From contig NZ_JAFBCT010000001.1 in NCBI RefSeq assembly GCF_016907835.1, positions 3,720,001-3,784,000 on the forward strand: a stretch of DNA of 64,000 nucleotides, written 5' to 3'. Positions 43,285 to 59,468 of the stretch are shown here, one piece after another (the stretch's first letter is position 1; each line of letters starts with the position of its first letter). The translations under genes were made by a program, and so were the position numbers. Under the pieces are notes generated by a model. It was given only the letters and a program-made list of their open reading frames with translations, was not told where the DNA came from and searched no databases. The DNA comes from Agromyces cerinus. GTDB lineage: Bacteria > Actinomycetota > Actinomycetes > Actinomycetales > Microbacteriaceae.

Positions 43285-44301
43285 TCACGATCCCGGCGGC
43301 GGCCCCGACGACCGGCGGACGATGAGTTCGTGCGTGGTGGAGATCGTGCGCGGCTCGTCGCCTGCCGCGCGGACGATGAGGGCGACGGCGTGGCGTCCCA
43401 TGTCGAACATGGGGATGCGCGCGGTCGTGAGCGCGGGAGCCACGTCTGCGGCGACGGAGATGTCGTCGAATCCGACGACGGATCGATCCTCGGGGACCCG
43501 GATCTCGTGCTGGCGCAGCTCGCGGAGGATGCCGATCGCCATCGCGTCGTTCAGTCCGACGATCGCGGTGACATCGGTGTCGAGCAGCTCGCGAGCGCCG
43601 GCGATGCCGCCCTCGCGGGTGAATTCGTGGGACACGACGGTCAGCTCCACGTCGGCGAGGCGCGTGCCTTCGCGGAGCCCCGCGATGCGATCGGCGACCG
43701 TGTTCAGGTCGAGCGGCCCGGCGACGACGCCGATCCGGCGGTGGCCGAGCTCGGCCAGGTGCCTTCCCACCGAGACACCCGCGCCGTGGTTGTCGGGAAG
43801 CACGGAGTCCACCGGGAGGTGGTGGCGCCCGATGACCGCGACTCGGCCGCCCGCGAGCGTGAAGTCGGTGAGTACCTGCGCCATCGGTCGTTCCCGGGCG
43901 AAGTCGGAGTAGCCCGAGCCGGCGATGATGATCGACCCCACGCGCTGGTGCAGCAGAGCCTTCACCTGAGCGAGTTCGCTGGCGGGAGTGCGCTCGGCCT
44001 GGGCGATCTGGACGGACCGGGCCTCCAGCGTCGCGCTGCGGATCACGCCGCTGGCTATGTCGGCGAAGTACGGATCGCCGATCTCGTGCACGACGAGACC
44101 GATCGTCGGCACGAGCCCGCCCGCGAGGCCCCGGGCGTGCAGGTTGGGCTCGTAGCCGAGGCGCTCGGCGACGCGGAGGACGTGGGCGGCGCCTTCGGGC
44201 GAAATACCCGGGCTGCCGGTCATGGCGCGCGACGCGCTCGCCAGGGAGACCCCCGCAGCATTGGCCACGTCTATCAGCCGCGGCGCGCCTGCACGCTTCA
44301 C
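43285..44301 (-). CDS. LacI-family transcriptional regulator
   Basis: A 338-residue LacI/GalR repressor. The N-terminal helix-turn-helix and hinge read RLIDVANAAGVSLASASRAM then HVLRVAERLGYEPNLHARGL. A sugar-binding periplasmic-fold domain follows (PTIGLVVHEIGDPYFADI, VVGFDDISVA). I chose the GTG at 44301, preceded by GGAGGGGG; the frame extends further but would start in the operator. It is divergent from the ABC transporter operon, with a 26-bp palindrome between them and a second copy ahead of the secreted dehydrogenase at 53918. It most likely represses both until the pathway's sugar-like effector is bound. Confidence 0.9.
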   Translation of the reverse strand: MKRAGAPRLIDVANAAGVSLASASRAMTGSPGISPEGAAHVLRVAERLGYEPNLHARGLAGGLVPTIGLVVHEIGDPYFADIASGVIRSATLEARSVQIAQAERTPASELAQVKALLHQRVGSIIIAGSGYSDFARERPMAQVLTDFTLAGGRVAVIGRHHLPVDSVLPDNHGAGVSVGRHLAELGHRRIGVVAGPLDLNTVADRIAGLREGTRLADVELTVVSHEFTREGGIAGARELLDTDVTAIVGLNDAMAIGILRELRQHEIRVPEDRSVVGFDDISVAADVAPALTTARIPMFDMGRHAVALIVRAAGDEPRTISTTHELIVRRSSGPPPGS

Positions 44302-44346
44302 GTAACCCCCTCCGTGGAGCGAACCGAAGCAGTGATGCGCTGCGGG

Positions 44347-44375
44347 TTGCTCTCGCTCTTTCCTCCAACTATAGT
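44347..44375 (+). promoter_or_regulatory. Promoter of the LIV-type transporter operon
   Basis: TTGCTC (44347-44352), 17 bp, then TATAGT (44370-44375). The LacI operator starts two bases further on, placing it over the start point. Confidence 0.65.
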
Positions 44376-44377
44376 GA

Positions 44378-44403
44378 CGAAAGCGCTTACGCAAGCGCTT
44401 TCG
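44378..44403 (+). promoter_or_regulatory. LacI-family operator O1
   Basis: Perfect palindrome: 11-bp arms CGAAAGCGCTT (44378-44388) and AAGCGCTTTCG (44393-44403) around ACGC. It sits between lacI and the transporter operon, directly downstream of the TATAGT box. Confidence 0.85.
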
Positions 44404-44426
44404 CTACGATGACGTAGGAGGCTCGG

Positions 44427-45662
44427 ATGACCGCACCACTTCACGGTCGAAAGATCGCCGCGGCGATTGCCATGGCATCGATTGCCGCAATCGTACTTTC
44501 GGCTTGCTCCGGAGGGAGTGAGCAGCCGGAAGGGGGAGGTTCCGAGGACCCGATCGTCATCGGAATCTCGTTGCCGCTCACGGGTGACTTCTCCGAGCCG
44601 GGCAAGGGGGTGGAGCGAGGCTATGAGGCCTGGCGCGACATCGTCAACGAGAGCGGTGGCCTTCTCGGCCGTCAGGTCGAGCTGAAGATCCTCGACGACC
44701 AGTCGAACGCCGACCGTGTGGTCTCCGACTACGAGTCGCTGATCGCGCAGGACGGCGTCGATCTCGTCTTCGGACCGTTCTCGACCCGCCTCGTCGTCCC
44801 GTCGGCGCGGGTCGCCCAGGAGTACGGAATGCTGTTCGTCGAGCCTGCCGGCGCTGCCGCCGAGGTCTTCGAGCAGGGCTTCGACAACCTCTTCTATGCT
44901 GCGCCGGCCGTGGCCGACGACCACTACAACAACCTCGCCGACTACCTGCTCGCACTTCCCGAGACGGAGCGCCCCGAGACGGTCGCCGTCGCGGCGATGG
45001 ACGACCCGTTCGCACAGGGCACGGCGTACGGGCTTCGAGACAAGCTCGAGGCAGGCGGCGTCGAGGTCCTGGTCGACGAGGTCTACCCCCCGAACACGAC
45101 GGACTTCTCCACCATCGCGGCGAAGATCGCCCAGTCCGACGCCGACATGGTGATCGGCGGGACGCAGTATCAGGATGCCGTCAACCTGATCATCGCGCTG
45201 CAGCAGCTCGACTATCAGCCCGAGCTCGCCGCGTTCTCCACTGCGCCGACCAACCCGGAGTTCGCCGCCGCCATCGGAAACGCGACCGAGGGCATCCTCG
45301 CGCCGACCGGATACTCGCCGACGTCGGAGTTCCCGAGCAACGTCGAATTCGTCGAGAAGTACACCGAGATGCACGGCAATCCGCCGGCGGAGGATGAGGC
45401 GAACGCCTACACGACCGGCCAGGTCGTCGCCGCCGCGGTGGAAGCCGTCGGCTGCGCCGAACAGGGCGAGTGCCAGCAGCAACTCATCGACTGGCTGCAC
45501 GACAACACTGTCGACACGGTCGTCGGACCGCTCAGCTGGGACGAGACAGGCAAGCCCAATGGCGCTCACCTCATCCAGCAGTGGATCGACGGCGAGATCC
45601 TGATCGTCCTCCCCGAGGACGTCAAGGAAGGGGACTTCCTCTTCCCGAAGCCGACCTGGTGA
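44427..45662 (+). CDS. ABC transporter substrate-binding lipoprotein, branched-chain amino acid (HAAT) type
   Basis: A 411-residue lipoprotein: basic start, hydrophobic core and lipobox LSAC at about 24-27. The mature part is a Peripla_BP_6 protein (IVIGISLPLTGDFSEPGKG, RGYEAWRDIVNESGGLLGR, VDLVFGPFSTRLV). Such proteins bind amino acids, amides or other small carboxylates. Here the gene is under a LacI operator and followed by sugar-type enzymes, so the ligand may be an unusual polyol, sugar acid or glycoside. AGGAGG precedes ATG 44427. Confidence 0.88.
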   Translation: MTAPLHGRKIAAAIAMASIAAIVLSACSGGSEQPEGGGSEDPIVIGISLPLTGDFSEPGKGVERGYEAWRDIVNESGGLLGRQVELKILDDQSNADRVVSDYESLIAQDGVDLVFGPFSTRLVVPSARVAQEYGMLFVEPAGAAAEVFEQGFDNLFYAAPAVADDHYNNLADYLLALPETERPETVAVAAMDDPFAQGTAYGLRDKLEAGGVEVLVDEVYPPNTTDFSTIAAKIAQSDADMVIGGTQYQDAVNLIIALQQLDYQPELAAFSTAPTNPEFAAAIGNATEGILAPTGYSPTSEFPSNVEFVEKYTEMHGNPPAEDEANAYTTGQVVAAAVEAVGCAEQGECQQQLIDWLHDNTVDTVVGPLSWDETGKPNGAHLIQQWIDGEILIVLPEDVKEGDFLFPKPTW

Positions 45663-45672
45663 CCGGCGCATC

Positions 45673-46557
45673 GTGAGTGGATCCCTCCTGCTGCAAAGCG
45701 TGATCCTCGGCGTGCTGCTGGGAGGGCTCTACGCCCTCCTGGCAGCGGGCCTCACGCTCTACTTCGGCATCATGCGCGTCGTCATGATCGCGCACTCGGC
45801 CTTCCTCATCCTCGCCGCCTACCTCGCATGGTGGTTCAACCGCGAGACCGGCATCGACCCGCTCGTGTCGCTCATCGTCACCGTGCCCCTGTTCTTCGTC
45901 GCCGGTCTCCTGACGCAGCGACTGCTGGTCTCGAGGCTCAAGCCCCTCACCCTGACCATGATGTCGGTGCTCCTCACGTTCGCTGTCGCCCTCGTGATCG
46001 AGGGAGGGCTGGGGTTCATCTTCTCGGGAACCCAGCGGCGCATCCCCCTGCCCTACGCGAGCGAGAGCCTCAACTTCTTCGGCGCGCAGGTGCCGGTCGT
46101 CAAGCTCATCGCCTTCGGACTGGCGGCGCTGTCGCTCGCACTGCTCTTCGTCGTCCTGAAGTACACGCGATTCGGACAGGCCCTGCGGGCGACCATCCAG
46201 CATCCGGAGGCTGCGCGGCTCGTCGGGATCAACACCGAGCGCGTCGCGGGGTACGGCTTCGGCCTCGGTCTCGCAACTGCCGCGATCGGTGGCACCGCAC
46301 TCTCGCTCGACGCCACGATCTACCCTTCGTTGCACTGGCACTGGATCGGGCCCCTGATGGCGATCATCGTCGTCGGCGGTCTCGGCAGCATCCCCGGCGC
46401 CGCGATCGCGGCTCTCGTCCTCGGCGTCGCGCAGAGCCTGCTTCAGCTTCCTCTGGGGTCGACGTGGGCGCAGACGGTCTTCTACGTCGCGCTGTTCCTC
46501 ACCCTCATGTTCCGCCCGCAAGGATTCTTCGGAGGTCGACTTGCCCAGCGCTTCTAG
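45673..46557 (+). CDS. ABC transporter permease, LivH type
   Basis: A 294-residue permease with about eight helices and LivH features: SVILGVLLGGLYALLAAGLT at the start, GIMRVVMIAHSAFL, and the EAA-like region YTRFGQALRATIQHPEAARLVGI. It forms the membrane channel with the LivM-type protein. GTG 45673 lies 10 bp after the binding-protein stop. The 3' end overlaps the livM-type gene by 17 bp. Confidence 0.88.
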   Translation: MSGSLLLQSVILGVLLGGLYALLAAGLTLYFGIMRVVMIAHSAFLILAAYLAWWFNRETGIDPLVSLIVTVPLFFVAGLLTQRLLVSRLKPLTLTMMSVLLTFAVALVIEGGLGFIFSGTQRRIPLPYASESLNFFGAQVPVVKLIAFGLAALSLALLFVVLKYTRFGQALRATIQHPEAARLVGINTERVAGYGFGLGLATAAIGGTALSLDATIYPSLHWHWIGPLMAIIVVGGLGSIPGAAIAALVLGVAQSLLQLPLGSTWAQTVFYVALFLTLMFRPQGFFGGRLAQRF

Positions 46558-47677
46558 CTCAGGCCCCGTGATCACCGAAACGGTCGTGATCCCACCATCC
46601 GCCCCCGTGCGACCCACCTGGTCACGGTGGGTGAGCGTCGCGCTCCTGCTCGTCGGAGCAGCCCTCGTCCTGGCATTCCCCTCGATCGCACCGAATCCGT
46701 ACATCCTGTCCGCGGGCGTCGTGATCCTCAACTACGCCGTGCTGTCGACGGGTTGGAACTTCATGGGAGGGTTCACGGGCTACATCTCCCTCGGGCACGC
46801 CGCCTACTTCGGGCTGGGTGCCTACGGGACCGCGCTGGCGATCAAGTACCTGGCACTTCCGAGCTTCGTCGCCTGGATCGTCGCGTCGCTGCTGGTCGCG
46901 ATCATCGCGATTCCGATCGGCATCGCGGCCTTGCGAGTGCGGGGCGCATCATTCGTGATCGTGTCGATCGCGTTCGTGCTCATCATGCTCCTGGTGTTCC
47001 AGGGCTGGCGTGAGGTCACGGGCGGCTCTGACGGCCTGAACGTTCCGCGCCCATTCCCCGACCTTCTTCGGCCGGAGCATCATCGCGTCTTCTACTACCT
47101 GTTCGCTGCACTCCTCGCCCTGGCTCTCGTCGTCTGGTGGATCATCGATCGCTCGAAGTTCGGGACCGCGCTCAAGTCGATTCGCGAGGACGAGGACAAG
47201 GCTCAGTCGCTCGGCGTTCCGACGACGCGTTACAAGCTGATCGCCTACGTCTTGTCAGCGGTCTTCGTGGCGCTCGGCGGAGGACTCTATGCACTGTGGT
47301 TCGGCGATCTGGATCCGATCTTCCAGTTCTCCATCCTGATCGGCTCGTACATGGTGCTCATGGCGCTGCTCGGAGGCGTGCGGAATCTGTTCGGGCCGTT
47401 GCTGGGTGCCGTGGTCGTGGGCCTCGCGCTCGAGTACTTCAAACTCGAGTTCGGCGAAACGCAGTTCCACCTGGTCGCGACCGGACTCCTGCTCGGCATC
47501 GTCGTCCTCTTCATGCCGGATGGGATCATCCCGGCCGTGAAGGGATTGTTCACGCGGTCGTCCTCGCAGGCCTCGATCCGCGAGGTCACCGCCGCAGAAC
47601 TGCTCGATCAGAATCGCGCTCGCAGCGCGAAGCAGGAGTCCCGAACCCCCGACGCGTCCGGAGAGGAGACGTCATGA
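46541..47677 (+). CDS. ABC transporter permease, LivM type
   Basis: A 378-residue permease with a 30-residue hydrophilic start, nine to ten helices and the LivM signatures GYISLGHAAYFGLGAYGTAL and FGTALKSIREDEDKAQSLGV. I chose the TTG at 46541 because GGAGG lies five bases before it, inside the end of livH. The next in-frame candidate (GTG 46568) has no such site. A C-terminal 40-residue Ser/Arg-rich tail extends beyond the usual LivM fold. The stop overlaps the LivG start by 4 bp. Confidence 0.87.
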   Translation: MPSASSSGPVITETVVIPPSAPVRPTWSRWVSVALLLVGAALVLAFPSIAPNPYILSAGVVILNYAVLSTGWNFMGGFTGYISLGHAAYFGLGAYGTALAIKYLALPSFVAWIVASLLVAIIAIPIGIAALRVRGASFVIVSIAFVLIMLLVFQGWREVTGGSDGLNVPRPFPDLLRPEHHRVFYYLFAALLALALVVWWIIDRSKFGTALKSIREDEDKAQSLGVPTTRYKLIAYVLSAVFVALGGGLYALWFGDLDPIFQFSILIGSYMVLMALLGGVRNLFGPLLGAVVVGLALEYFKLEFGETQFHLVATGLLLGIVVLFMPDGIIPAVKGLFTRSSSQASIREVTAAELLDQNRARSAKQESRTPDASGEETS

Positions 47678-48438
47678 ACGCCCGTCAAGAAGACCAGGCG
47701 GCCACGAAAGGCAACCTGCGCACCATCGAGATGACCAAGTCCTTTGGAGGCGTCACCGCCGTCGATGGCGCGTCGGTGGAGTTCCAGGAGGGGAAGGTCA
47801 ATGGCCTGATCGGACCCAACGGCTCCGGTAAGACCACCTTCTTCAACTGCGTGACGGGCATGATCAAGCCTGATGCGGGAATCGTCACGTATCGCGGCCG
47901 TGCCATCACGCGTCAGTCGCCCGATCGCATCGCGCGCGCCGGGATCGGACGCAGCTTCCAGCTGTGCAGGATCTTTCCCCGCATGACGGTCATGGAGAAC
48001 CTGCTCGTCGCGGTGCGCCACACGAACATCGCGCGCCAACTCCACTCCGCCCATGATCCGGAGGAGCTCGAACGGGCGAGGGGATGGCTGCGGCGAGTCG
48101 GCATCGATCACCTCGAGCATGCCGAAGCGCGCAACCTCAGCTATGGCCAGCAGAAGCTGCTCGAGCTGGCGGGCGTCCTGATGGGCGATCCCGACACGAT
48201 CATGCTCGACGAGCCCGCGGGAGGCGTCAACCCCGCGCTCATCGGGCGCATCTCGACCCTCGTGCGTGAGCTCAACGCCGAGGGCAAGACCTTCATCATC
48301 GTCGAGCACAACATGGAGATGGTCATGAGCCTGTGCGATCACCTCGTGGTGTTCGACCGCGGTCGTCCGATCGCAGAAGGCGCACCCGCGATCATCCAGC
48401 GCGACCCGCGAGTCCTGGAGGCCTACCTTGGAGTCTGA
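47674..48438 (+). CDS. ABC transporter ATP-binding protein, LivG type
   Basis: A 254-residue ATPase with Walker A GPNGSGKTT, the LivG-specific IGRSFQLCRIFPRMTVMENL, signature LSYGQQKLLELA (Tyr in place of Gly at the third position, as in many LivG proteins), Walker B IMLDEPAGGVNP and an H-loop in VEHNMEMV. ATG 47674 has GAGAGGAG before it. It works with LivF to power the transporter. The last 11 bp overlap the LivF gene. Confidence 0.9.
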   Translation: MNARQEDQAATKGNLRTIEMTKSFGGVTAVDGASVEFQEGKVNGLIGPNGSGKTTFFNCVTGMIKPDAGIVTYRGRAITRQSPDRIARAGIGRSFQLCRIFPRMTVMENLLVAVRHTNIARQLHSAHDPEELERARGWLRRVGIDHLEHAEARNLSYGQQKLLELAGVLMGDPDTIMLDEPAGGVNPALIGRISTLVRELNAEGKTFIIVEHNMEMVMSLCDHLVVFDRGRPIAEGAPAIIQRDPRVLEAYLGV

Positions 48439-49204
48439 GTCGAAGAACCTTCTCGAACTGCGGGACATCGAGGCGGGCTACGGCCGCGCCGCGCTCGTCC
48501 TGCGCGGGTTGACAGTCGAAGTGCCCCCTGCCTCGGTCGTCTGTCTCGTCGGCCCGAACGGCGCCGGCAAGTCGACGGTGCTGAAGGTGGCCAGCGGCAT
48601 GCTGATCCCCCGGTCGGGAAGCATCCGCATCGATGGGCAGGATGTCACGGGTGACGGGCCGCAGACCATGCTGCAGAATGGGCTGGCCCACGTCCTTCAG
48701 GGGCACAGCGTGTTCCGAGAGATGACCGTCGGCGAGAACGTCATGCTGGGGGCGTTCACGGTCAAGGACCCGATCGTCGTGCAGGAGCGCGTCGAGTTCG
48801 TCCAGAATCTGTTCCCCATCGTGGGGGAACGATGGAAGCAGCTCGCAGGACTCCTCTCGGGAGGCCAGCAGAAGCAGGTCGAGTTCGCCCGATCACTCAT
48901 GGTGAGCCCGAAGGTCGTGCTGCTCGACGAGCCGTCGATGGGCCTCGACCCGAAGACGACGGCGAAGGTCTTCGAGCAGGTCGCTCGCATGCGTGATGCC
49001 GGTACGGCCGTGCTCCTCGTCGAGCAGAACGCACGCCGGGCACTGGAGACGGCCGACATCGGCTGCGTCCTCGACCTCGGCCGCGTGCACATCTCAGGCC
49101 CGGCGCCCCAGCTGCTCGCGGATCCGAATCTCGCCGATCTCTACCTGGGCGGTCAGCCCTCAGCCCGCAGCGACGTCACCGAGCAGCCCGGCGCGGCGCT
49201 GTAG
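48428..49204 (+). CDS. ABC transporter ATP-binding protein, LivF type
   Basis: A 258-residue ATPase with Walker A GPNGAGKST, HVLQGHSVFREMTVGENV after the Q-loop, signature LLSGGQQKQVEFARSL and Walker B VLLDEPSMGLDP, all typical of LivF. Translation starts at TTG 48428, inside the end of livG, with GGAGG seven bases before it. This is the second TTG start in this operon. The oxidoreductase gene follows 40 bp later. Confidence 0.9.
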   Translation: MESESKNLLELRDIEAGYGRAALVLRGLTVEVPPASVVCLVGPNGAGKSTVLKVASGMLIPRSGSIRIDGQDVTGDGPQTMLQNGLAHVLQGHSVFREMTVGENVMLGAFTVKDPIVVQERVEFVQNLFPIVGERWKQLAGLLSGGQQKQVEFARSLMVSPKVVLLDEPSMGLDPKTTAKVFEQVARMRDAGTAVLLVEQNARRALETADIGCVLDLGRVHISGPAPQLLADPNLADLYLGGQPSARSDVTEQPGAAL

Positions 49205-49244
49205 CGCCCCCGAACATCAATTCACGACGGAAGAACGGAACGAC

Positions 49245-50438
49245 ATGTCAGTCCCATCCACAGCCTCGACCGAGGCATCCCTTCCCGAGACGCGCGAGAT
49301 CGGCGTCATCATGAACGGCGTCTCGGGCCGCATGGGCTACCGTCAGCACCTCGTGCGCTCGATCCTCGCGATTCGCGACCAGGGTGGCATCGAGCTCCCC
49401 GACGGCACGAAGGTCACGGTCAGGCCGCTGCTCGTCGGCCGTAGCCCGGGGAAGCTCGCCGAACTCGCCGCCAAGCATGGCATCGAGGACTACACGACGG
49501 ATCTGGATGCCGCGCTGGCCGACCCGCGCTGGGAGATCTATGCCGACTTCCTGGTGACCAAGGCTCGAGCCACCGCGTTGCGCAAGGCGATCGCCGCCGG
49601 CAAGACCATCTATACCGAGAAGCCCACGGCCGAATCCGTCGACGAGTCGCTCGAGCTCGCGCGTCTTGCCCGCGAGGCCGGCGTGAAGACCGGCGTCGTG
49701 CACGACAAGCTCTACCTGCCGGGCCTGCAGAAGCTCAAGCGCCTCATCGACTCCGGCTTCTTCGGCCGCATCCTGAGCGTGCGCGGCGAGTTCGGCTACT
49801 GGGTCTTCGAGGGCGACTGGCAGCCCGCCCAGCGCCCCAGCTGGAACTACCGTGCCGAAGACGGCGGCGGCATCATCGTCGACATGTTCCCGCACTGGAA
49901 CTACGTGCTCGAGAACCTGTTCGGCAAGGTCGAGACCGTCTACGCGCAGGCATCGACGCACATTCCGACCCGCTGGGACGAGAACGGCGAGCCGTACGAG
50001 GCCACCGCCGAGGATGCGGCATACGGCATCTTCGAGCTGGAGGGCGGCACGATCGCGCAGATCAACTCGTCGTGGACCGTGCGGGTCAACCGTGACGAGC
50101 TCGTCGAGTTCCACGTGGACGGCACGCTCGGGTCGGCGGTCGTCGGGCTGTTCGGCGCGAAGATCCAGCATCGCAACGCCACCCCGAAGCCGGTGTGGAA
50201 CCCCGACCTCGCCGACGATCACGACTACGACGCGGACTGGGCGAACGTCCCCACCAACGACGTCTTCCAGAACGGGTTCCGCCAGCAATGGGAGGAGTTC
50301 CTCATGTCCTACGTCCTGGGCACCGACTACGAGTTCGACCTGCTCGCCGGCGCCCGCGGTGTACAGCTGGCCGAAGCCGGCCTGCAGTCGGCGCGTGAGG
50401 GACGCAAGGTCGAGCTGACCGTGCTCTCGCTGGATTGA
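49245..50438 (+). CDS. Gfo/Idh/MocA-family NAD(P)-dependent oxidoreductase
   Basis: A 397-residue sugar-type dehydrogenase. The N-terminal Rossmann domain (IGVIMNGVSGRMGYRQHLVR) carries the family's catalytic EKPTA motif at IYTEKPTAES, and the C-terminal alpha/beta domain has GGGIIVDMFPHWNYVLENLF. Members oxidise a hydroxyl of inositols, sugars or glycosides, often at C3. This one is rather long, and its loop AQRPSWNYRAEDGGG suggests a specialised group. It heads the catabolic part of the operon, 40 bp after the transporter genes, and is directly followed by the DUF993 gene. The substrate is not known. Confidence 0.85.
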   Translation: MSVPSTASTEASLPETREIGVIMNGVSGRMGYRQHLVRSILAIRDQGGIELPDGTKVTVRPLLVGRSPGKLAELAAKHGIEDYTTDLDAALADPRWEIYADFLVTKARATALRKAIAAGKTIYTEKPTAESVDESLELARLAREAGVKTGVVHDKLYLPGLQKLKRLIDSGFFGRILSVRGEFGYWVFEGDWQPAQRPSWNYRAEDGGGIIVDMFPHWNYVLENLFGKVETVYAQASTHIPTRWDENGEPYEATAEDAAYGIFELEGGTIAQINSSWTVRVNRDELVEFHVDGTLGSAVVGLFGAKIQHRNATPKPVWNPDLADDHDYDADWANVPTNDVFQNGFRQQWEEFLMSYVLGTDYEFDLLAGARGVQLAEAGLQSAREGRKVELTVLSLD

Positions 50439-50443
50439 CGCGC

Positions 50444-51661
50444 ATGACGAACCTCACGCTGATCTCCTCCAACGGCGCGACCTCCGCGGTCCCTCTCGCG
50501 GAGGCCCCCGGGCACACCAAGCCCACGGGCGCACTGCGGAGCCGCGTCGCGTATGCCGCGGCACACGTCGTGCCACGGGTCTTCGCCGACAACACTCCGG
50601 GCCGGCCCGCTGACGTGGACTGGGACGCCACACTCGCGTTCCGTCGGCACGTGTACTCGTGGGGCCTTGGCGTCGCGGATGCGATGGACACCGCGCAGCG
50701 GAACATGGGATTGGATGCCGCGGCTACCCGCGAGCTGATCTCGCGCTCCGCGCAGGTCGCGCGTGAGGAGGGCGGCTCGGTCGTCGTCGGGGTCAACACC
50801 GACCACATCGACGACGAGCGGATCTCGGTGAGCGCCGTGATCGACGCTTACAAGACGCAACTGCACTTCACCGAGGAACAGGGCGCCGGGCCGGTGCTGA
50901 TGGCATCGCGCCACCTCGCACGTGCAGCGCAGTCGGCCGACGACTACCGCCGGGTGTACCGCGGCGTGCTCGCTTCGGCCACCACGCCGGTCGTCCTGCA
51001 CTGGCTCGGCACCGCATTCGACCCGCTGCTCGAGGGCTACTTCGGTTCGTCCGATCGGCGCGTCGCGGCGGATGTGCTTCTCGAGATCATCGGGGAGAAC
51101 GCCGACAAGATCTCGGGCGTGAAGATGAGCCTGCTGGATGCTGCATCCGAAGTGTCGGTGCGCGAGCGTCTCCCCGAGGGCGTGCGCATGTTCACGGGCG
51201 ACGACTTCAACTACGTGGGCCTCATCGGCGGCTCGGACGTGCCCGATGCACCACAGCCCGAGCGCGACCCCGCCTCGCCCCGACAGCATTCCGATGCATT
51301 GCTCGGCGCATTCGCCGCCCTCACCACGGTCGCCTCGGCGGCGATCCAGGCGTTGGACGCAGGCGACTCGGACCGCTACCTCGCCATTCTCGGTCCCACC
51401 GAGGAACTCAGCCGACAGATCTTCGCCGCACCGACGTTCTACTACAAGACCGGTGTCGCTTTCGTTTCGTGGCTCAACGGCCACCAGGCCGCGTTCCAGA
51501 TGGTCAACGGTCTGCACTCCGCACGGAGCCTGCCGCACCTCTCGCGCATCGTCGAACTCGCCAATGCCACGGGTGCGCTCGAGCGGCCGGAACTCGCGGC
51601 CGCCCGCTGGCACGGGATGCTGCGCTGCAACGGAGTCGACACCCCGGGGGCATCCGCATGA
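50444..51661 (+). CDS. DUF993-family protein (DHDPS-like TIM barrel)
   Basis: A 405-residue DUF993 protein. The pattern VVVGVNTDHIDDE, AGPVLMASRHLARAA, TPVVLHWLGTAFDPLLEGYFG and KISGVKMSLLDAASE resembles the beta-alpha units of dihydrodipicolinate-synthase/aldolase-like TIM barrels, with K in GVKMS in the place of a Schiff-base lysine. The family has no established reaction that I can name. Position between a Gfo/Idh enzyme and an isomerase-like TIM barrel suggests an aldolase or lyase step on an oxidised sugar. I chose ATG 50444; a TTG at 50435 overlapping the previous stop is also possible. Confidence 0.75.
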   Translation: MTNLTLISSNGATSAVPLAEAPGHTKPTGALRSRVAYAAAHVVPRVFADNTPGRPADVDWDATLAFRRHVYSWGLGVADAMDTAQRNMGLDAAATRELISRSAQVAREEGGSVVVGVNTDHIDDERISVSAVIDAYKTQLHFTEEQGAGPVLMASRHLARAAQSADDYRRVYRGVLASATTPVVLHWLGTAFDPLLEGYFGSSDRRVAADVLLEIIGENADKISGVKMSLLDAASEVSVRERLPEGVRMFTGDDFNYVGLIGGSDVPDAPQPERDPASPRQHSDALLGAFAALTTVASAAIQALDAGDSDRYLAILGPTEELSRQIFAAPTFYYKTGVAFVSWLNGHQAAFQMVNGLHSARSLPHLSRIVELANATGALERPELAAARWHGMLRCNGVDTPGASA

Positions 51662-52566
51662 GCGCATCCCACGACGGCGCCGTCGACCCGCGCCTGTCGA
51701 TCAATCAGGCCACCATCAAGCACGCCGATCTCCCGACCGCCCTCCGTGTGACGGCCGAGGCCGGGGTGCAGGCGATCGGCCTGTGGCGCGAGCCGGTGCA
51801 GGAGGTCGGCCTCGCCACGGCGGCATCCATGCTGTCCGACTCCGGGCTGCGTTTCACGACCCACTGCCGGTCGGGGTTCTTCACGATGCCAGAGGGGCCG
51901 GCGCGTCGTGCGTCGCTCGCCGACAACCGAGTCGCGATCGAGGAGGCCGCGACCCTGGCGGCGGCCGGTGCCGAGGGGTCGACGGCGATTCTCGTGCTGG
52001 TCGCGGGTGGGCTGCCCGACGGCTCGCGTGACCTCGCCGGCGCGCGCGAGCGGGTGCGCGACGCGATCGGCGAACTGGTGCCCGATGCCGCCGCCGCCGG
52101 TGTCACGCTCGCGATCGAGCCGCTGCATCCCATGTACGCGACCGACCGCTGCGTCGTGTCGACCCTCGGCCAGGCGCTCGACATCGCCGCCGACTTCGAT
52201 CCGCGCGTGGTGGGTGCCACCGTCGACACCTTCCACATCTTCTGGGATCCCGACGTGCTCGCGCAGATCAGCCGGGCGGGACGCGAGGGGCGAATCGCCA
52301 CGTACCAGGTCTGCGATTGGAAGACGCCGCTTCCGGCGGACGTGCTGTTGAGCCGGCACTATCCCGGTGACGGCGTCATCGACCTGAGCACCTTGACGGC
52401 GGCAGTCATCGCGACGGGGTACGACCGCGACATCGAGGTCGAGATCTTCAACGCCGACATCTGGGCGGCCGACGCGGCGTCCGTCGTGCGCCGCACGGCG
52501 GACGCCTTCGCCACGACCATCTCGCCTTCACTGGCACGTGCCGGCGGCTCGGCCCGAGCCGACTGA
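51658..52566 (+). CDS. Sugar phosphate isomerase/epimerase-like TIM-barrel protein
   Basis: A 302-residue AP-endonuclease-2/xylose-isomerase-like TIM barrel. Likely metal ligands are E in VTLAIEPLHPMYA, D and H in GATVDTFHIFWD, H in LLSRHYPGDG and E in DIEVEIFN. Such proteins isomerise or epimerise sugars and inosose-type ketones, or cleave 3-keto-glycosides by elimination. ATG 51658 overlaps the DUF993 stop (ATGA), and the two genes with the Gfo/Idh gene form a tight trio. Exact reaction unknown. Confidence 0.8.
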   Translation: MSASHDGAVDPRLSINQATIKHADLPTALRVTAEAGVQAIGLWREPVQEVGLATAASMLSDSGLRFTTHCRSGFFTMPEGPARRASLADNRVAIEEAATLAAAGAEGSTAILVLVAGGLPDGSRDLAGARERVRDAIGELVPDAAAAGVTLAIEPLHPMYATDRCVVSTLGQALDIAADFDPRVVGATVDTFHIFWDPDVLAQISRAGREGRIATYQVCDWKTPLPADVLLSRHYPGDGVIDLSTLTAAVIATGYDRDIEVEIFNADIWAADAASVVRRTADAFATTISPSLARAGGSARAD

Positions 52567-52603
52567 TGGCCCGCGCGTGCGTGGGAACCCGAGCCGGCGC
52601 CGG

Positions 52604-53728
52604 ATGTCGCTGACATCGATCGTGTTCGCGCCCGACAGCTTCAAGGGCTCGATAGCGGCCGCCGATGCCGCCGCCGCGCTCGCCGCGGGCTGGGCGTCGG
52701 TCCTCCCAGCCGATCGCGTGATGCTCCGGCCCATGGCGGACGGCGGAGAAGGAACCGTGGATGCGTTCGCCGCGGCGGTCGACGGTGCGATCCGGGTGCC
52801 GGTCGTCGTGACGGGCCCGGACGGGAGGGCGACCGCCGCCTCATGGCTCCTGCTACCGGCGACGCCGGATGCGCCGGGCGGTACCGCGGTCGTCGAGCTG
52901 GCGTCGACGAGCGGGATCGAGATGCTGGGCATCCGGCGGGCTGGCATGGACGCCCACACCCTCGGCTTCGGCCAGGCGATTCGTGCGGCGCTCGGCTCGG
53001 GGGCGTCGCGCGTCGTCCTCGGCATCGGTTCGAGCGCCTCGACCGATGGCGGTACAGGGCTCCTCACGGCGCTCGGTGCCCGGTTCACCGATGCGGCGGG
53101 TGATGCCATCGTCCAAGGCGCCCGAGGCCTGGCGGACGTGGTTGCGGTCGATCTGAGCGGCCTCCTGCCGCTGCCGGCCGCAGGTGCGATCGTCCTCAGC
53201 GACGTGACGAATCCTCTCCTCGGCGAGCGCGGCGCGGCCGCCGTGTTCGGCCCGCAGAAGGGGCTGGATTCCGGCGAGGTCGTGCGCGCCGATGCGGGAC
53301 TCGCGCGCCTCGCCGCACTCCTGCCTGCAGACCCCTTCGCCGAGGGAGCGGGTGCGGCGGGTGGCGCCGGGTTCGGGCTGCTCGCATGGGGAGCGCGGCT
53401 CGTCGCGGGCTCGGCGGAGGTCGGAGGACTCGTCGGCCTGCACACGGCCCTGGCCGACGCATCCTTCGTCGTCACGGGGGAGGGCTCGTTCGATCGTCAG
53501 TCCGCCGCCGGCAAGGTGCCGTCGCACGTCGCGGCATCCGCCCGTGCAGCAGGTGCCACGGCCCTCCTCGTCGCTGGTCGCATCACCCCGGACGCGGATA
53601 CCTCGTCGTTCGCGGCATCCGTCTCGCTCTCCGAGCTCGCTGGTTCCACCTCGGCCGCGCTCGCCGAACCGGCGCGATGGCTGCACGCCGCGGGCGCTTC
53701 GCTTGCGAGGTCGCTCGCCGCCCGCTGA
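52604..53728 (+). CDS. Glycerate kinase
   Basis: A 374-residue glycerate kinase of the GlxK/GarK family: IVFAPDSFKGSIAAADAAAA at the N-terminus, RPMADGGEGTVDAF, IGSSASTDGGTGLL, and a C-terminal VTGEGSFDRQSAAGKVP, all diagnostic. It phosphorylates D-glycerate, giving 2- or 3-phosphoglycerate. Its place at the end of the operon implies that the pathway yields glycerate or a precursor as a C3 fragment. The start is uncertain: ATG 52604 keeps the full domain but has no ribosome site, while GTG 52577 would add nine Arg-rich residues. Confidence 0.88.
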   Translation: MSLTSIVFAPDSFKGSIAAADAAAALAAGWASVLPADRVMLRPMADGGEGTVDAFAAAVDGAIRVPVVVTGPDGRATAASWLLLPATPDAPGGTAVVELASTSGIEMLGIRRAGMDAHTLGFGQAIRAALGSGASRVVLGIGSSASTDGGTGLLTALGARFTDAAGDAIVQGARGLADVVAVDLSGLLPLPAAGAIVLSDVTNPLLGERGAAAVFGPQKGLDSGEVVRADAGLARLAALLPADPFAEGAGAAGGAGFGLLAWGARLVAGSAEVGGLVGLHTALADASFVVTGEGSFDRQSAAGKVPSHVAASARAAGATALLVAGRITPDADTSSFAASVSLSELAGSTSAALAEPARWLHAAGASLARSLAAR

Positions 53729-53752
53729 TCGCACGCGCGAAGGCGGCGATCC

Positions 53753-53782
53753 TTGCCACTTTCACTCTCTTCGTTGTAGGTT
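53753..53782 (+). promoter_or_regulatory. Promoter of the secreted sugar dehydrogenase gene
   Basis: TTGCCA (53753-53758), 18 bp, then TAGGTT (53777-53782), with the second LacI operator beginning three bases later. The geometry matches that at 44347-44403. Confidence 0.55.
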
Positions 53783-53784
53783 GA

Positions 53785-53810
53785 CGAAAGCGGTTACGTA
53801 AGCGCTTTCG
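53785..53810 (+). promoter_or_regulatory. LacI-family operator O2
   Basis: Arms CGAAAGCGGTT (53785-53795) and AAGCGCTTTCG (53800-53810) around ACGT, with one mismatch. It differs from O1 at only two of 26 positions, which places the gene at 53918 in the same regulon as the transporter operon. Confidence 0.85.
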
Positions 53811-53917
53811 TAGCCGCGTGCACAACTGTCTCACATCTCGTCCGTTGCAGTGCCGCCCGGGCGAGTGGCACGACATCACATCGGCACGCCACCGACGACG
53901 ACGTTGAGAGGTCTCTG

Positions 53918-56900
53918 ATGCACGAACGAACCATGCGATGGACAGACATGAGCAGGCCGTCGAAAGCCAAACGCTCCGGATCGGCAGGTGCGCGACGGGC
54001 CGTCGCAGTCGTCGCAGCGATGGCCGTCTTCAGTTCCGTGCTGACCGGCGGCCCAGCCTCGGCAGCGGAGCCGTTCACCGAAGTGCTCGACTTCGAGCAG
54101 TACGAGCGCACCGCGCTCCACGGTCAGGACGGTTGGACGGCATCCGGTGCACCACGAGTGATCGCGGATCCGCTCAACGGGAACAATCAGGTTCTCGAGT
54201 CCGTCGGCGGGACGCAGCAGGCGTATCGAGCCATCCCCCCGATCGCCGAAGGCGCCACCGGAACCCTCTTCTTCCGCTTCATGCGCACCGGCAGCGTGGA
54301 CACCTCGTTCGGGCTCACCGACGTGGACGCGCCGACGGACTACCCGAACAGCCGGGCGTACATCAACAACCAGAACAGCGACGTCATGCTCGTCCGCGAC
54401 GCGGGCGCCTTCAAGCCCGTCGGAGCCTGGTCGCGCGACACGTGGCAGTGCGTCTGGATCGTCGCCGACAACGCGGCCGACAAGGTCACGGTCTACAGCC
54501 AGGGTGGACCGTACACCGAGGTCACCCGTCTCCCCGAAGGCACCGAGCAGCAGTTCGGATTCCGTCAGGCGGTGAACGGGGCGCTCGACCGGTTCTTCTG
54601 GAAGAACGGCGCGTCGAGCGCCGGACGGCTCATGCTCGACGACGTCGCCATCGACACTGCCCGCGAGAACCTCGCAATCGCGACCGGCAACCCCGCCGAT
54701 TGCGCCCCCGGCGGCACGCAGGCCCCCGATCCGCTGCTCAACCCCCTCCCCGATCCCGCGCGCTCCGTGCTCGGCATCGAGGTGACCGAGCTCGCGCAGC
54801 TTCCACCGTCGCAGACGACTCCCGCGACGCAGGACCAGCGACTGGTGCGGCACAACAGGATCACGCACCTCGACGAGGTGCCGGACGGCTCAGGCCGCCT
54901 GATGGTGCCCGACAACAACGCGATCCTCTACCTGGTCGACAAGGAGACCGGGGAGTACGTCCCCTATCTCAACGTCCGCGACCAGTTCATCGACAACTTC
55001 CACAACAGCGCCGGACTGGGCACAGGCCTCGGGGCGGCGGAGTTCCACCCGGACTTCGGCGAGAACGGCCTCTTCTACACCGTGCACACCGAGGGCGGCA
55101 GCGCCCTCACGGAGGACACGCCCGACTTCCCCGGGTTCGGCAACACTGCCTTCCACAGTGTGATCACCGAGTGGACGGCGAACGACCCGTCGGCGGCGAC
55201 CTTCGAGGGCACCCATCGGGAGGTCATGCGCATCCCGTTCGCCGGTCGGGTGCACACCGTGCAGCAGATCGCCTTCAACCCCACTGTGGACCCAGGCGAC
55301 GCGGACTACGGCAACCTCTACGTGCTCGTCGGCGACGGCGGCAATGGCGTCGGCAACGGCAACCCGCAGGATCTCGCGACGCCGCAGGGCAAGATCCTGC
55401 GCATCAACCCTTCCGGCGACAGCAGCGCGAACGGCGAGTACGGCGTGCCGGGCGACAACCCCTTCGTCGACGAGGCCGGTGCCCTGCCGGAGATCTACGC
55501 CATCGGCATGCGCGACCCGCACCGGATCAGCTGGGACCCGGCCGGTGACCACACGATGTACCTCGCTCACATCGGCGAATGGCAGGTGGAGTCCGTGTAC
55601 GCGGTCGAACCGGGGGACAACTTCGGTTGGTCCGAGCGCGAGGGTTCGTTCCTCGCAGACAACCGGCAGATCTTCCCGCTGCCGGCTGACGACGCACAGT
55701 ACGGCTACACCTACCCGGTGGCCGCATACGACCACAACCGCGACCCCGGGCAGACCGGCGACGCCGGCGTCGCCGTGAACGGCGGCTTCGTATACCGCGG
55801 CGACATCCCCGAACTGCGGGGTCGTTACCTCTTCACCGACCTCGTTCGCGGATGGGTGCTGTCGGCACAGGCCGATCAGATGGTGCGCAACGACGGAGAC
55901 ATCGCGGACCTCGCGACGATCGAGGAGCTGCGCGTCTTCCACGACGGTCAGGAGACGACGTTCCAGGAGTTGGTCGGCGACACGCGTGTCGACTTGCGAT
56001 TCGGCGCGGATGCCGATGGGGAGCTCTACCTGGTGGCGAAGGCGAACGGAAAGATCTGGAAGGTCACGGGTGCCAGGAACATCGGACCGTCGTCGCCCTT
56101 CGCCCTTCCGGAACTCGCCCCGAACCTCGTTGCGCACTATGACTTCGATCACCCCGCCGCCGGTGACCCGACGGTCGAGGCCGACCAGGGATGGTCGGGG
56201 ACGAACATCTCGCTCGTCAACGGCGGGGTGGAGATGCGAGTCGCCGACCGGGCATACCCGGGGGCGGGCGAGGCACTGCAGACCCAGCAGATGAGCCCGC
56301 GAACCTCGTCGAACGACGACTGGAAGGCCGGCGTGTACGACGCTTCCGGCGTGCAGACGCTCGAAGCGCTCGCGGGCACCGACCAGGCCGCCGTCATGGG
56401 ATGGTTCAAGCCCACCGGCGATCATCCGGCGCTGAACTCGGGGAGCGCGAACCCGGACGACCGCTACAACGCGATCGGCTTGGCGGGTGTGCTCACCGGC
56501 ACGTCGGACGGCCACGCTGTGCGCGCCCTTCTGGAGGTGATCACCGTGAACGGCGAGCTCAAGCTGGTCGCGCTCGGTCGTCGCCTCGACGGTGCGGGCT
56601 CATGGACGTTCGCGGCCGAGAAACCGTGGGACGAGATCCTGCAGAAGGGGAAGTGGGTTCACCTCGCCGCGACCTTCGACTTCGCCGCGGGTGAGATGCG
56701 GCTGTTCATGAACGGAGAGGAACTCGAGGGCGACTACACGGCGTCCAACCCATGGGGATCGGGACCCACGTCAGACACCGCGCCAGCAGGCATCAAGATC
56801 GGCGGGAGCTTTCCCCAGAACACCCGAGAGGCCAACCCGTTCAACGGACGGATGGACAACGTGATGCTTCTCGACGTGGTGCCGACAGCCGAGCAGATCG

Positions 56901-58102
56901 CCGCGCAGTACGCGCTGTTCGCCGCCACACCGCCCGAGACTCCGGCTCCGCCCACGTGCGCACCTGCCGGCACTCCCATCACCGATGTGACCTCTGCGGA
57001 CGATTGGGCGCCACGGACTCCCGCCAAGTGGCAGTTCCCCGGCGACGAGGTCATCCTCGCTGAGGCCGGTACGAACCCGAACGACGGCATCCGTCGCCCA
57101 TTCGAGTACGCCGTGCTCAGCGAGGGCCCGGAGCTCGGTTCGTTCGATCTCGCTGCGCAGGTGCGGCTCGATGCGCCGGCGTCGGTGAACAACCGCGATG
57201 TCATCGTGGTGTTCGGCTGGCAGTCCGACACGGAGTACTACTACGCCCACCTCTCGCAGGACAATACGATCTATGCCCACAACGGCATCTTCAAGGTCGA
57301 TAACGCCGATCGCGAGCGGATCGATCAGCAGTGGGATGGCTCGATCGGCGCGCCGCCGGCCGTCACCGACGAGGAGTGGCACGACGTCCGTGTCGTTCGA
57401 TGTGCGGACAGCGGCGACATCGCCGTCTACGTCGACGGGCTTGATACGCCGTTGCTGACCGCGAACGATCTCACGTTCGGTAAGGGCCGAGTGGGCTTCG
57501 GGTCGTTCGACAACTTCGGACGGCTCCGCGACCTCACGGTCACGCCTGCTGTCGTCGATGCCACTGCTCCTACGGTGACGGTGAAGTCGGGCGAGGAGTT
57601 CACGGTGGGCGCCGACGGCACCTACGGCAAGGTGTCGTTCAAGCTGAACGATGCGGGGAAGGTCGACCGCCTCACCCTCAACGGGGTCGCGAAGGATCTG
57701 ACGAACGACGCCTGGTCCGACCTCAACTTCGTGGTGCCCGGTGTCTTCGGTGCGGTGAGCGGGGAGAACACGCTCGTGGTGTACGACGTCTCGGGCAACG
57801 CCACGACCGTGCGGTTCATCCTCGACTCCACTGCTCCTACGGTGACGGTGAAGTCGGGCGAGGAGTTCACGGTGGGCGCCGACGGCACCTACGGCAAGGT
57901 GTCGTTCAAGCTGAACGATGCGGGGAAGGTCGACCGCCTCACCCTCAACGGGGTCGCGAAGGATCTGACGAACAACGCCTGGTCCGACCTCAACTTCGTG
58001 GTGCCCGGTGTCTTCGGTGCGGTGAGCGGGGAGAACACGCTCGTGGTGTACGACGTCTCGGGCAACGCCACGACCGTGCGGTTCACGCTGAACGCGCGCT
58101 AG
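53918..58102 (+). CDS. Large secreted PQQ-type sugar dehydrogenase with LamG-like domains and C-terminal repeats
   Basis: A 1,394-residue exported mosaic. A long signal peptide is cleaved near residue 49 (GPASA). Residues about 50-270 are a concanavalin-like sandwich. Residues about 283-720 are a glucose/sorbosone dehydrogenase-type six-blade propeller (RHNRITHLDEVPDG, GTGLGAAEFHPDFGENGLFY, GQTGDAGVAVNGGFVYRG) that in the family uses PQQ. A LamG domain (about 733-1003), a second concanavalin-like domain (about 1018-1213) and two almost identical 89-residue Ig-like repeats follow. There is no LPXTG or membrane anchor, so it is released or bound by its repeats. ATG 53918 has AGAGG before it. 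Under LacI operator O2, it probably oxidises the extracellular substrate of the pathway. Confidence 0.85.
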   Translation: MHERTMRWTDMSRPSKAKRSGSAGARRAVAVVAAMAVFSSVLTGGPASAAEPFTEVLDFEQYERTALHGQDGWTASGAPRVIADPLNGNNQVLESVGGTQQAYRAIPPIAEGATGTLFFRFMRTGSVDTSFGLTDVDAPTDYPNSRAYINNQNSDVMLVRDAGAFKPVGAWSRDTWQCVWIVADNAADKVTVYSQGGPYTEVTRLPEGTEQQFGFRQAVNGALDRFFWKNGASSAGRLMLDDVAIDTARENLAIATGNPADCAPGGTQAPDPLLNPLPDPARSVLGIEVTELAQLPPSQTTPATQDQRLVRHNRITHLDEVPDGSGRLMVPDNNAILYLVDKETGEYVPYLNVRDQFIDNFHNSAGLGTGLGAAEFHPDFGENGLFYTVHTEGGSALTEDTPDFPGFGNTAFHSVITEWTANDPSAATFEGTHREVMRIPFAGRVHTVQQIAFNPTVDPGDADYGNLYVLVGDGGNGVGNGNPQDLATPQGKILRINPSGDSSANGEYGVPGDNPFVDEAGALPEIYAIGMRDPHRISWDPAGDHTMYLAHIGEWQVESVYAVEPGDNFGWSEREGSFLADNRQIFPLPADDAQYGYTYPVAAYDHNRDPGQTGDAGVAVNGGFVYRGDIPELRGRYLFTDLVRGWVLSAQADQMVRNDGDIADLATIEELRVFHDGQETTFQELVGDTRVDLRFGADADGELYLVAKANGKIWKVTGARNIGPSSPFALPELAPNLVAHYDFDHPAAGDPTVEADQGWSGTNISLVNGGVEMRVADRAYPGAGEALQTQQMSPRTSSNDDWKAGVYDASGVQTLEALAGTDQAAVMGWFKPTGDHPALNSGSANPDDRYNAIGLAGVLTGTSDGHAVRALLEVITVNGELKLVALGRRLDGAGSWTFAAEKPWDEILQKGKWVHLAATFDFAAGEMRLFMNGEELEGDYTASNPWGSGPTSDTAPAGIKIGGSFPQNTREANPFNGRMDNVMLLDVVPTAEQIAAQYALFAATPPETPAPPTCAPAGTPITDVTSADDWAPRTPAKWQFPGDEVILAEAGTNPNDGIRRPFEYAVLSEGPELGSFDLAAQVRLDAPASVNNRDVIVVFGWQSDTEYYYAHLSQDNTIYAHNGIFKVDNADRERIDQQWDGSIGAPPAVTDEEWHDVRVVRCADSGDIAVYVDGLDTPLLTANDLTFGKGRVGFGSFDNFGRLRDLTVTPAVVDATAPTVTVKSGEEFTVGADGTYGKVSFKLNDAGKVDRLTLNGVAKDLTNDAWSDLNFVVPGVFGAVSGENTLVVYDVSGNATTVRFILDSTAPTVTVKSGEEFTVGADGTYGKVSFKLNDAGKVDRLTLNGVAKDLTNNAWSDLNFVVPGVFGAVSGENTLVVYDVSGNATTVRFTLNAR
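57561..58085 (+). repeat. Tandem 267-bp coding repeat, two copies
   Basis: 57561-57818 and 57828-58085 are aligned with a 267-bp period and differ at a single base that I can find (57708 versus 57975, Asp to Asn). They encode the two C-terminal Ig-like modules. Such identity means a very recent duplication or ongoing gene conversion. Confidence 0.85.

Positions 58103-59431: not shown

Positions 59432-59468
<37 letters not shown>

Follow-up and report, generated by a model that had tools for sequence, protein, structure and literature searches.

A predicted LacI regulon combining a HAAT-type importer, a DUF993 protein and a secreted dehydrogenase-like protein in Agromyces cerinus

A 64,000-nucleotide stretch of the Agromyces cerinus genome (contig NZ_JAFBCT010000001.1, positions 3,720,001 to 3,784,000; hereafter the window) carries, between positions 43285 and 58102, genes for a LacI-family regulator, a HAAT-type (amino-acid-type) ATP-binding cassette (ABC) importer, a Gfo/Idh/MocA oxidoreductase, a DUF993 protein, an isomerase-like TIM barrel, a glycerate kinase and a secreted dehydrogenase-like protein. 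The prediction that these genes form one regulon is supported by two shared tandem LacI-type operators; nowhere else in the genome does a site come within one mismatch of AAGCGCTTNNNNAAGCGCTT. An original prediction on this DNA had placed all of these genes in one regulon by assertion, and the sequence now supports that assertion. We tentatively favour a reading in which LacI controls a stand-alone set of genes for using an extracellular sugar and the DUF993 protein is a candidate Schiff-base aldolase.

Gene organization and predicted operators

The genes and operators of the locus are as follows (window positions).

43285..44301, minus strand: LacI-family regulator with a LacI helix-turn-helix and a Peripla_BP_3 ligand domain (Pfam), divergent from the operon
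44379..44402, no strand: tandem LacI-type operator GAAAGCGCTTACGCAAGCGCTTTC, in the gap between lacI and the binding-protein gene
44427..45662, plus strand: HAAT-type lipoprotein solute-binding protein (SBP), 411 aa (Peripla_BP_6, 7.8e-56)
45673..46557, plus strand: HAAT permease 1 (BPD_transp_2, Pfam)
46541..47677, plus strand: HAAT permease 2 (BPD_transp_2, Pfam)
47674..48438, plus strand: HAAT ATPase 1, LivG type (ABC_tran and BCA_ABC_TP_C, Pfam)
48428..49204, plus strand: HAAT ATPase 2, LivF/UrtE type (ABC_tran; top NCBIfam rows UrtE and LivF, below cut-off)
49245..50438, plus strand: Gfo/Idh/MocA oxidoreductase (Pfam; nearest solved relative 3oqb, E 3.4e-142)
50444..51661, plus strand: DUF993 protein with a dihydrodipicolinate synthase (DHDPS) fold, candidate class I aldolase (conserved K227 and H186-W187)
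51658..52566, plus strand: AP_endonuc_2 (xylose-isomerase-like) TIM barrel (PF01261, 3.4e-33; solved relatives 3qc0, 3ju2 and 7vpf)
52604..53728, plus strand: glycerate kinase (PF02595, 7.9e-98; TIGR00045 passed with 283.7 bits against a cut-off of 168.45)
53786..53809, no strand: second tandem LacI-type operator, in the gap ahead of the secreted-protein gene
53918..58102, plus strand: secreted protein of 1,394 residues with GSDH and Laminin_G_3 domains (Pfam)

The gene content described in the original prediction was confirmed in place by clear Pfam matches. According to a codon-usage script, the probable start of LacI is 44301 (GTG) rather than 44394. In NCBIfam, the SBP, the Gfo/Idh/MocA enzyme (Gfo), the DUF993 protein and the TIM barrel have no model above cut-off.

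The first operator is a perfect tandem element and the second differs from it by one mismatch; the chance expectation for such a tandem operator in the window is 0.00 to 0.01. The genome consists of one contig of 3.98 Mb, in which the two operators of the locus are the two sites found at one mismatch or fewer; three more sites have two mismatches to AAGCGCTTNNNNAAGCGCTT, and the reversed control pattern gave 11 sites per strand against 5. The next gene downstream of 58102 is of the rRNA adenine dimethylase type and was excluded from the gene set. A hexamer in six perfect copies (59433-59468) lies just 3' of it.

Recurrence of the gene set and its linkage to the importer

To collect related loci, an alignment of two binding proteins was searched against 84,980 species, each represented by one genome. 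The scan confirmed 205 binding-protein relatives, and the best 80 of the 205 were analysed with up to 10 kb of flank on each side; together with the window and locus L077 they make up the 82 HAAT loci counted below (L and G numbers denote loci and genomes). Several flanks end at contig ends, and many of the 82 loci are close kin (Microbacterium, Cellulosimicrobium and Micromonospora). Genes were called by the codon-usage script and families were clustered by blastp.

The HAAT genes were found in 80-82 of these loci, lacI in 71, the GSDH protein gene in 61 (the window included), Gfo in 29, DUF993 in 28, the TIM barrel in 24 and a separate LamG protein in 24; no remaining family occurs in more than nine. 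A neighbourhood search, which the original prediction had named as a check, finds the Gfo-DUF993-TIM-barrel set (hereafter the core) recurring across genomes. Gfo or DUF993 genes stand beside the HAAT genes in 29 loci in varying arrangements: right behind the ATPase genes, upstream with a lacI gene of their own (L140, L141 and L152) or beyond the GSDH gene (L123, L128, L129, L136, L144, L147 and L157). The secreted protein and the core occur together in 19 loci, in L125 by the C-terminal domain alone and at a contig end, and the LamG and C-terminal parts of the fused protein of the window are separate genes in some loci. A gene of the TauE/SafE type (sulfite exporter family) lies between the DUF993 and TIM-barrel genes in the distant locus of G333 (L077:11041-11787), and L188 holds a protein of the same cluster (f65).

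The operator element, with at most two mismatches, was detected by script in the gap between lacI and the SBP gene in 67 of the 82 loci, and the count rises to 69 with L130 and L151, in which the site falls slightly ahead of the SBP match. In 15 loci, including the window, a further, separate site precedes a GSDH, LamG or C-terminal-domain gene.

The DUF993 tree was built from 70 proteins (25 HAAT-linked), those of 330 residues or fewer having been left out. One HAAT-linked group comprises Microbacteriaceae, including the window, and is nested among kin without HAAT genes; a second is a 13-member clade from several families in which every member is HAAT-linked. Further placements are in Micromonosporaceae and in G333 (L077), whose position is uncertain owing to a long branch. 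Because the HAAT label requires five changes on this tree, three of them forced by well-supported (starred) branches, the link between the importer and DUF993 has probably formed repeatedly. The tree is a quick one with single-test support only, and in principle three of the changes might be one gain and two losses.

The DUF993 protein

The protein matches the DUF993 profile (PF06187) with 529.8 bits against a cut-off of 24 (E 4.9e-159). This is its sole Pfam match; PF00701 gave none, and the protein is therefore not filed as a member of that family. Its structural model has the DHDPS TIM-barrel fold, with 9-15% identity to the DHDPS/N-acetylneuraminate lyase superfamily among the matches listed. 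The original prediction had pointed to the lysine of a GVKMS motif as a possible Schiff-base residue. This lysine, K227, is kept in at least 97% of the 70 DUF993 sequences and in all 40 sequences of a second alignment, and in the model it falls on a fitting strand (223-229), which may correspond to the sixth strand that bears the Schiff-base lysine in the DHDPS superfamily. A profile comparison with one DHDPS sequence, a weak test, gave no match, so that an equivalence of K227 to the DHDPS lysine was not obtained from it. A His-Trp pair (H186-W187) lies on the strand on which we would expect the tyrosine of the DHDPS superfamily. On the strength of the modelled fold, the protein is a candidate Schiff-base aldolase of this superfamily.

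DUF993 is spread over Actinomycetota and Alpha-, Beta- and Gammaproteobacteria, and 147 plasmid records were matched, 88 of them from Sinorhizobium or Rhizobium. A structure has been public since 2012. Searches of open-licence literature yielded no reaction for DUF993 and, mostly in titles and the starts of abstracts, no published assignment of the same gene set; such an assignment is what the original prediction had named as refuting its proposal.

The importer and its binding protein

The importer has the composition of the HAAT class, with a Peripla_BP_6 binding protein, two BPD_transp_2 permeases and two Liv-type ATPases. In 82 homologues, 218 of the 411 positions of the SBP are identical in at least 95% of the sequences, and this strong conservation argues for a single ligand, with the proviso that the loci were chosen by similarity. 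The SBP model (pLDDT 73, middling confidence) matches the fold of 4n0q with TMt 0.89.

Among solved binding proteins, the closest relatives have leucine, Leu/Ile/Val or γ-aminobutyric acid (GABA)/alanine as ligands, as would be expected if this were an ordinary branched-chain amino acid importer that lies beside sugar genes by chance. Such a coincidence appears very improbable, because the operators are shared and the linkage recurs. In addition, LivJ residues T102, Y150 and Y202, which we take to contact the amino acid, align with A143, F195 and Q247 of the SBP (S79 aligns with T120). A non-amino-acid acid is a plausible ligand because solved binding proteins of the HAAT fold also hold 4-hydroxybenzoate, p-coumarate, phenylpyruvate and urea. 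Those for aromatic acids (Rhodopseudomonas palustris entries) share the fold and bind carboxylates other than amino acids, at 15-19% identity to the SBP. The combination of an amino-acid-type carrier with sugar enzymes, described in the original prediction as the odd part, accordingly seems less odd.

In the stretches read around more remote SBP homologues (39-54% identity; L186-L194), the core and GSDH are both absent and nothing hints at a substrate, and all eight genomes of the phylum sample with such remote homologues lack DUF993. In some of the loci L186-L194, the neighbours of the SBP relative look like amine oxidase, esterase or amidohydrolase genes, a hint of other ligands in that branch of the HAAT class.

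The secreted protein

The secreted protein has a signal-like N-terminus (judged by eye) and comprises an N-terminal part with no Pfam match, the GSDH domain (a domain of PQQ-dependent soluble glucose or aldose dehydrogenases; PQQ, pyrroloquinoline quinone), the Laminin_G_3 domain, a further part with no Pfam match and two 89-residue repeats. The GSDH match (PF07995, 1.9e-22) spans about 340 of the 1,394 residues, and the protein has no NCBIfam match. The repeats are encoded by two near-identical 267-bp units (99% matches) at 57561-58085, at the C-terminal end, suggesting a recent duplication. Residues H446, R532 and R536, which may correspond to ligands of PQQ, are kept in at least 97% of 60 GSDH sequences (of 61 proteins, one with a short alignment was left out); hedgehog-interacting protein can likewise be aligned.

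The core in other settings

Fourteen annotated plasmid loci with the DUF993 core served for comparison; plasmid-borne loci were left out of the structure work. In 11 of the 14, DUF993 has a TIM-barrel gene (sugar phosphate isomerase/epimerase) alongside, and in 7 the flank includes a glycerate kinase gene. Their carriers are of many kinds. Acid-carrier genes of the tripartite tricarboxylate (TTT) or tripartite ATP-independent periplasmic (TRAP) type lie within the flank in 5 of the 14, the TTT genes adjoining the core in L199 and L200 and the TRAP genes (L083, L202 and L203) not close beside it. L199 also contains a GMC dehydrogenase together with a subunit of the gluconate-2-dehydrogenase type and a cytochrome c, and elsewhere too the core is found near GMC dehydrogenases and aldehyde dehydrogenases. 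L200, L203 and L204 carry enolase-superfamily genes in the flank; L066 has genes of the mandelate-racemase and DHDPS types. These sugar-acid settings are the main reason for reading the pathway of the window as one for a sugar acid, and the acid carriers and L199 fit the earlier idea of extracellular oxidation followed by import of an acid. L082, L201 and L205 have CoA-transferase and enoyl-CoA hydratase genes instead, for which we have no place in the pathway. In L180, L181 and L184, from three genomes of the HAAT set (Microbacterium by title), the core lies beside galT-, galK- and galE-like genes, as judged by eye.

Proposed pathway and alternatives

The gene set, the two operators, the recurrent linkage and the DUF993 fold with its conserved lysine come from computation, while the substrate, the individual reactions and their sequence are inferred. 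The secreted GSDH/LamG protein would bind a plant or microbial carbohydrate and oxidize sugar to a lactone or acid, and the HAAT carrier would import the acidic product. Gfo would then turn a hydroxyl, on a ring or a chain, into a ketone, the TIM barrel would isomerize or dehydrate the ketone product, and the DUF993 protein, as a DHDPS-superfamily aldolase, would cleave it through a Schiff base. One three-carbon fragment would become D-glycerate, which the glycerate kinase would pass to glycolysis, and the LacI regulator would free both promoters upon binding a compound of the pathway. In a chemically consistent version, a 5-keto-hexonate would give tartronate semialdehyde and dihydroxyacetone. 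The pathway outlined in the original prediction is supported in part: the single regulon, the recurrent gene set, the aldolase-type fold with its conserved lysine and the lack of a published assignment in the searches speak for it, whereas the supposed oddness of the carrier is weakened. A more specific form of this proposal appears possible yet doubtful: the secreted dehydrogenase and the importer would work as a pair, the latter as a sugar-acid carrier, and DUF993 would be a new Schiff-base aldolase with His in place of the usual Tyr that cleaves a keto sugar acid en route to glycerate, the importer having joined several DUF993 lineages.

Several observations weigh against the proposal. Of the 82 HAAT loci, 43 have GSDH but no core nearby, 10 have the core but no GSDH and another 10 lack both, and glycerate kinase occurs in only 7. 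G049, with an SBP at 72-73% identity, has the HAAT, Gfo and TIM-barrel genes but no DUF993. Where the core is located elsewhere, no plausibly placed operator copy was found in 20 loci (L166-L185), the one match with two mismatches being in L178, while in L067 a two-mismatch site lies close to the Gfo gene; a HAAT carrier is annotated in none of the 14 plasmid loci. A sugar-acid HAAT binding protein is absent among the 50 fold matches listed. That other families are missing from the fold list is in itself no evidence. For tartronate-semialdehyde reductase, one way to glycerate, the best match in the window's own genome reached 153.8 bits against a cut-off of 340.75. PqqD had no match at E 0.001 in that genome, where the other pqq genes were not sought; PQQ dependence of the GSDH protein is uncertain, and PQQ might be taken up from outside. 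PQQ synthesis was rejected as a line of support, since pqq-type genes stand beside the HAAT genes in only one of the loci examined, that of Streptomyces cavernae (L160:6924-10001), in which pqqB-, pqqC-, pqqD- and pqqE-like genes lie directly upstream of the SBP gene.

Co-occurrence within genomes is a further such point. Of 48 searched genomes in which the HAAT locus itself lacks the core, 44 have DUF993, a count that was dropped as decisive evidence, being confounded by lineage. DUF993 occurs in 29 of 396 genomes of the phylum (the window genome included). The background is high: 34 of 60 genomes of the relatives set (own genome included) have DUF993, as do 28 of 36 relatives from the same genus, whereas an SBP at E 1e-80 was found in one of the 59 other genomes of that set (G049). 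The family of G472 was covered with 150 genomes, 92 of which have DUF993. An SBP of 72% identity or more is present in 27 of the 150 (three of these matches are partial); DUF993 occurs in 18 of those 27 and in 74 of the 123 others (counted by hand). Because DUF993 is common anyway in these two lineages, co-occurrence adds little, and the HAAT-core link rests on adjacency, not on presence in the same genome.

These data bear on a rival reading, in which two modules are loosely joined: the importer and the secreted GSDH protein would form one unit for some ligand, and Gfo, DUF993, the TIM barrel and glycerate kinase would make up a general module for keto sugars or sugar acids, recruited nearby on occasion, with a chemistry not tied to the cargo of the importer. 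The many HAAT-GSDH loci without the core, the variety of other carriers found with the core and the lack of a clear co-occurrence excess in the family of G472 all accord with it. We nevertheless consider it rather unlikely, as the importer has come to lie next to different DUF993 lineages repeatedly and separately, both genes lie within about 10 kb on one contig in 6 of the 18 G472-family genomes that have both, and in the window the core comes after the HAAT genes and shares their operator.

Two other readings start from the oxidoreductase and the TIM barrel. The substrate might be a cyclitol or cyclitol acid, such as a quinate- or shikimate-like acid or a relative of inositol, with Gfo oxidizing the ring and the TIM barrel dehydrating the product like IolE or QuiC. 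The top NCBIfam matches of the TIM barrel (3-dehydroshikimate dehydratase, IolO and hydroxypyruvate isomerase) and of Gfo (inositol 2-dehydrogenase) agree with this but are weak, far below cut-off; L195, whose SBP is 73% identical, holds a shikimate-dehydrogenase-like gene, a short-chain dehydrogenase/reductase (SDR) gene and CoA-transferase and enoyl-CoA hydratase genes, but the first was seen in this one locus only. Since glycerate kinase and GSDH are also ill-suited to ring aromatization, a cyclitol pathway is unlikely. The HAAT genes of L195 (367-5509) come without DUF993, and an amidohydrolase gene is also present.

Alternatively, Gfo might oxidize C3 of a glycosyl group and the AP_endonuc_2 protein cut the bond of a 3-keto-glycoside or C-glycoside, the importer bringing in an aromatic glycoside, an idea to which the known aromatic-acid binding proteins lend some colour. 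Gfo shows weak similarity to DgpA, levoglucosan dehydrogenase and glycoside 3-dehydrogenases. That similarity is remote, however (DgpA-type chains, E 9.8e-6 and 1.9e-5), and lies below the cut-offs (levoglucosan dehydrogenase, 60.4 versus 650 bits; BT_2158, 18.8 versus 750; BT_2159, 21.5 versus 650). Glycoside cleavage would also leave DUF993 and glycerate kinase without a role, and we regard it as quite unlikely.

Under the preferred reading, feeding on an extracellular sugar by way of its acid, the window holds a compact regulon, made up of a regulator with two operators, a binding protein and three enzymes, whose substrate is accessible to simple binding and growth tests. If true, a sugar-acid HAAT importer would widen the known range of cargo for this carrier class.

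Comparison with known systems

The carbohydrate cluster of plasmid pAO1 in Paenarthrobacter nicotinovorans (L080), for which a role in xylose oxidation has reportedly been proposed, encodes homologues of Gfo (61% identical), DUF993 (50%) and glycerate kinase (37%). It differs in having a sugar-type ABC carrier, a GMC oxidoreductase and AldH; a TIM barrel and HAAT genes are not annotated in that stretch. In Sinorhizobium meliloti 1021, SMc04130 and SMc04132 correspond to 3ju2 and 4dnh. Passages on the SMc tags in two papers name no substrate there, and SMc04135 is given there as being of the amino acid or peptide type.

The oxidative catabolism of deoxyribose and deoxyribonate (PMC6365646) proceeds from sugar to acid to keto acid to cleavage and requires glycerate kinase. 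The main text of that paper contains no word starting with dihydrodipicolinate or DUF, and the system resembles the one proposed here in logic only. The route from sugar to acid, keto acid and glycerate is thus of a known kind, and what may be new is the DUF993 enzyme family and a HAAT carrier in such a role.

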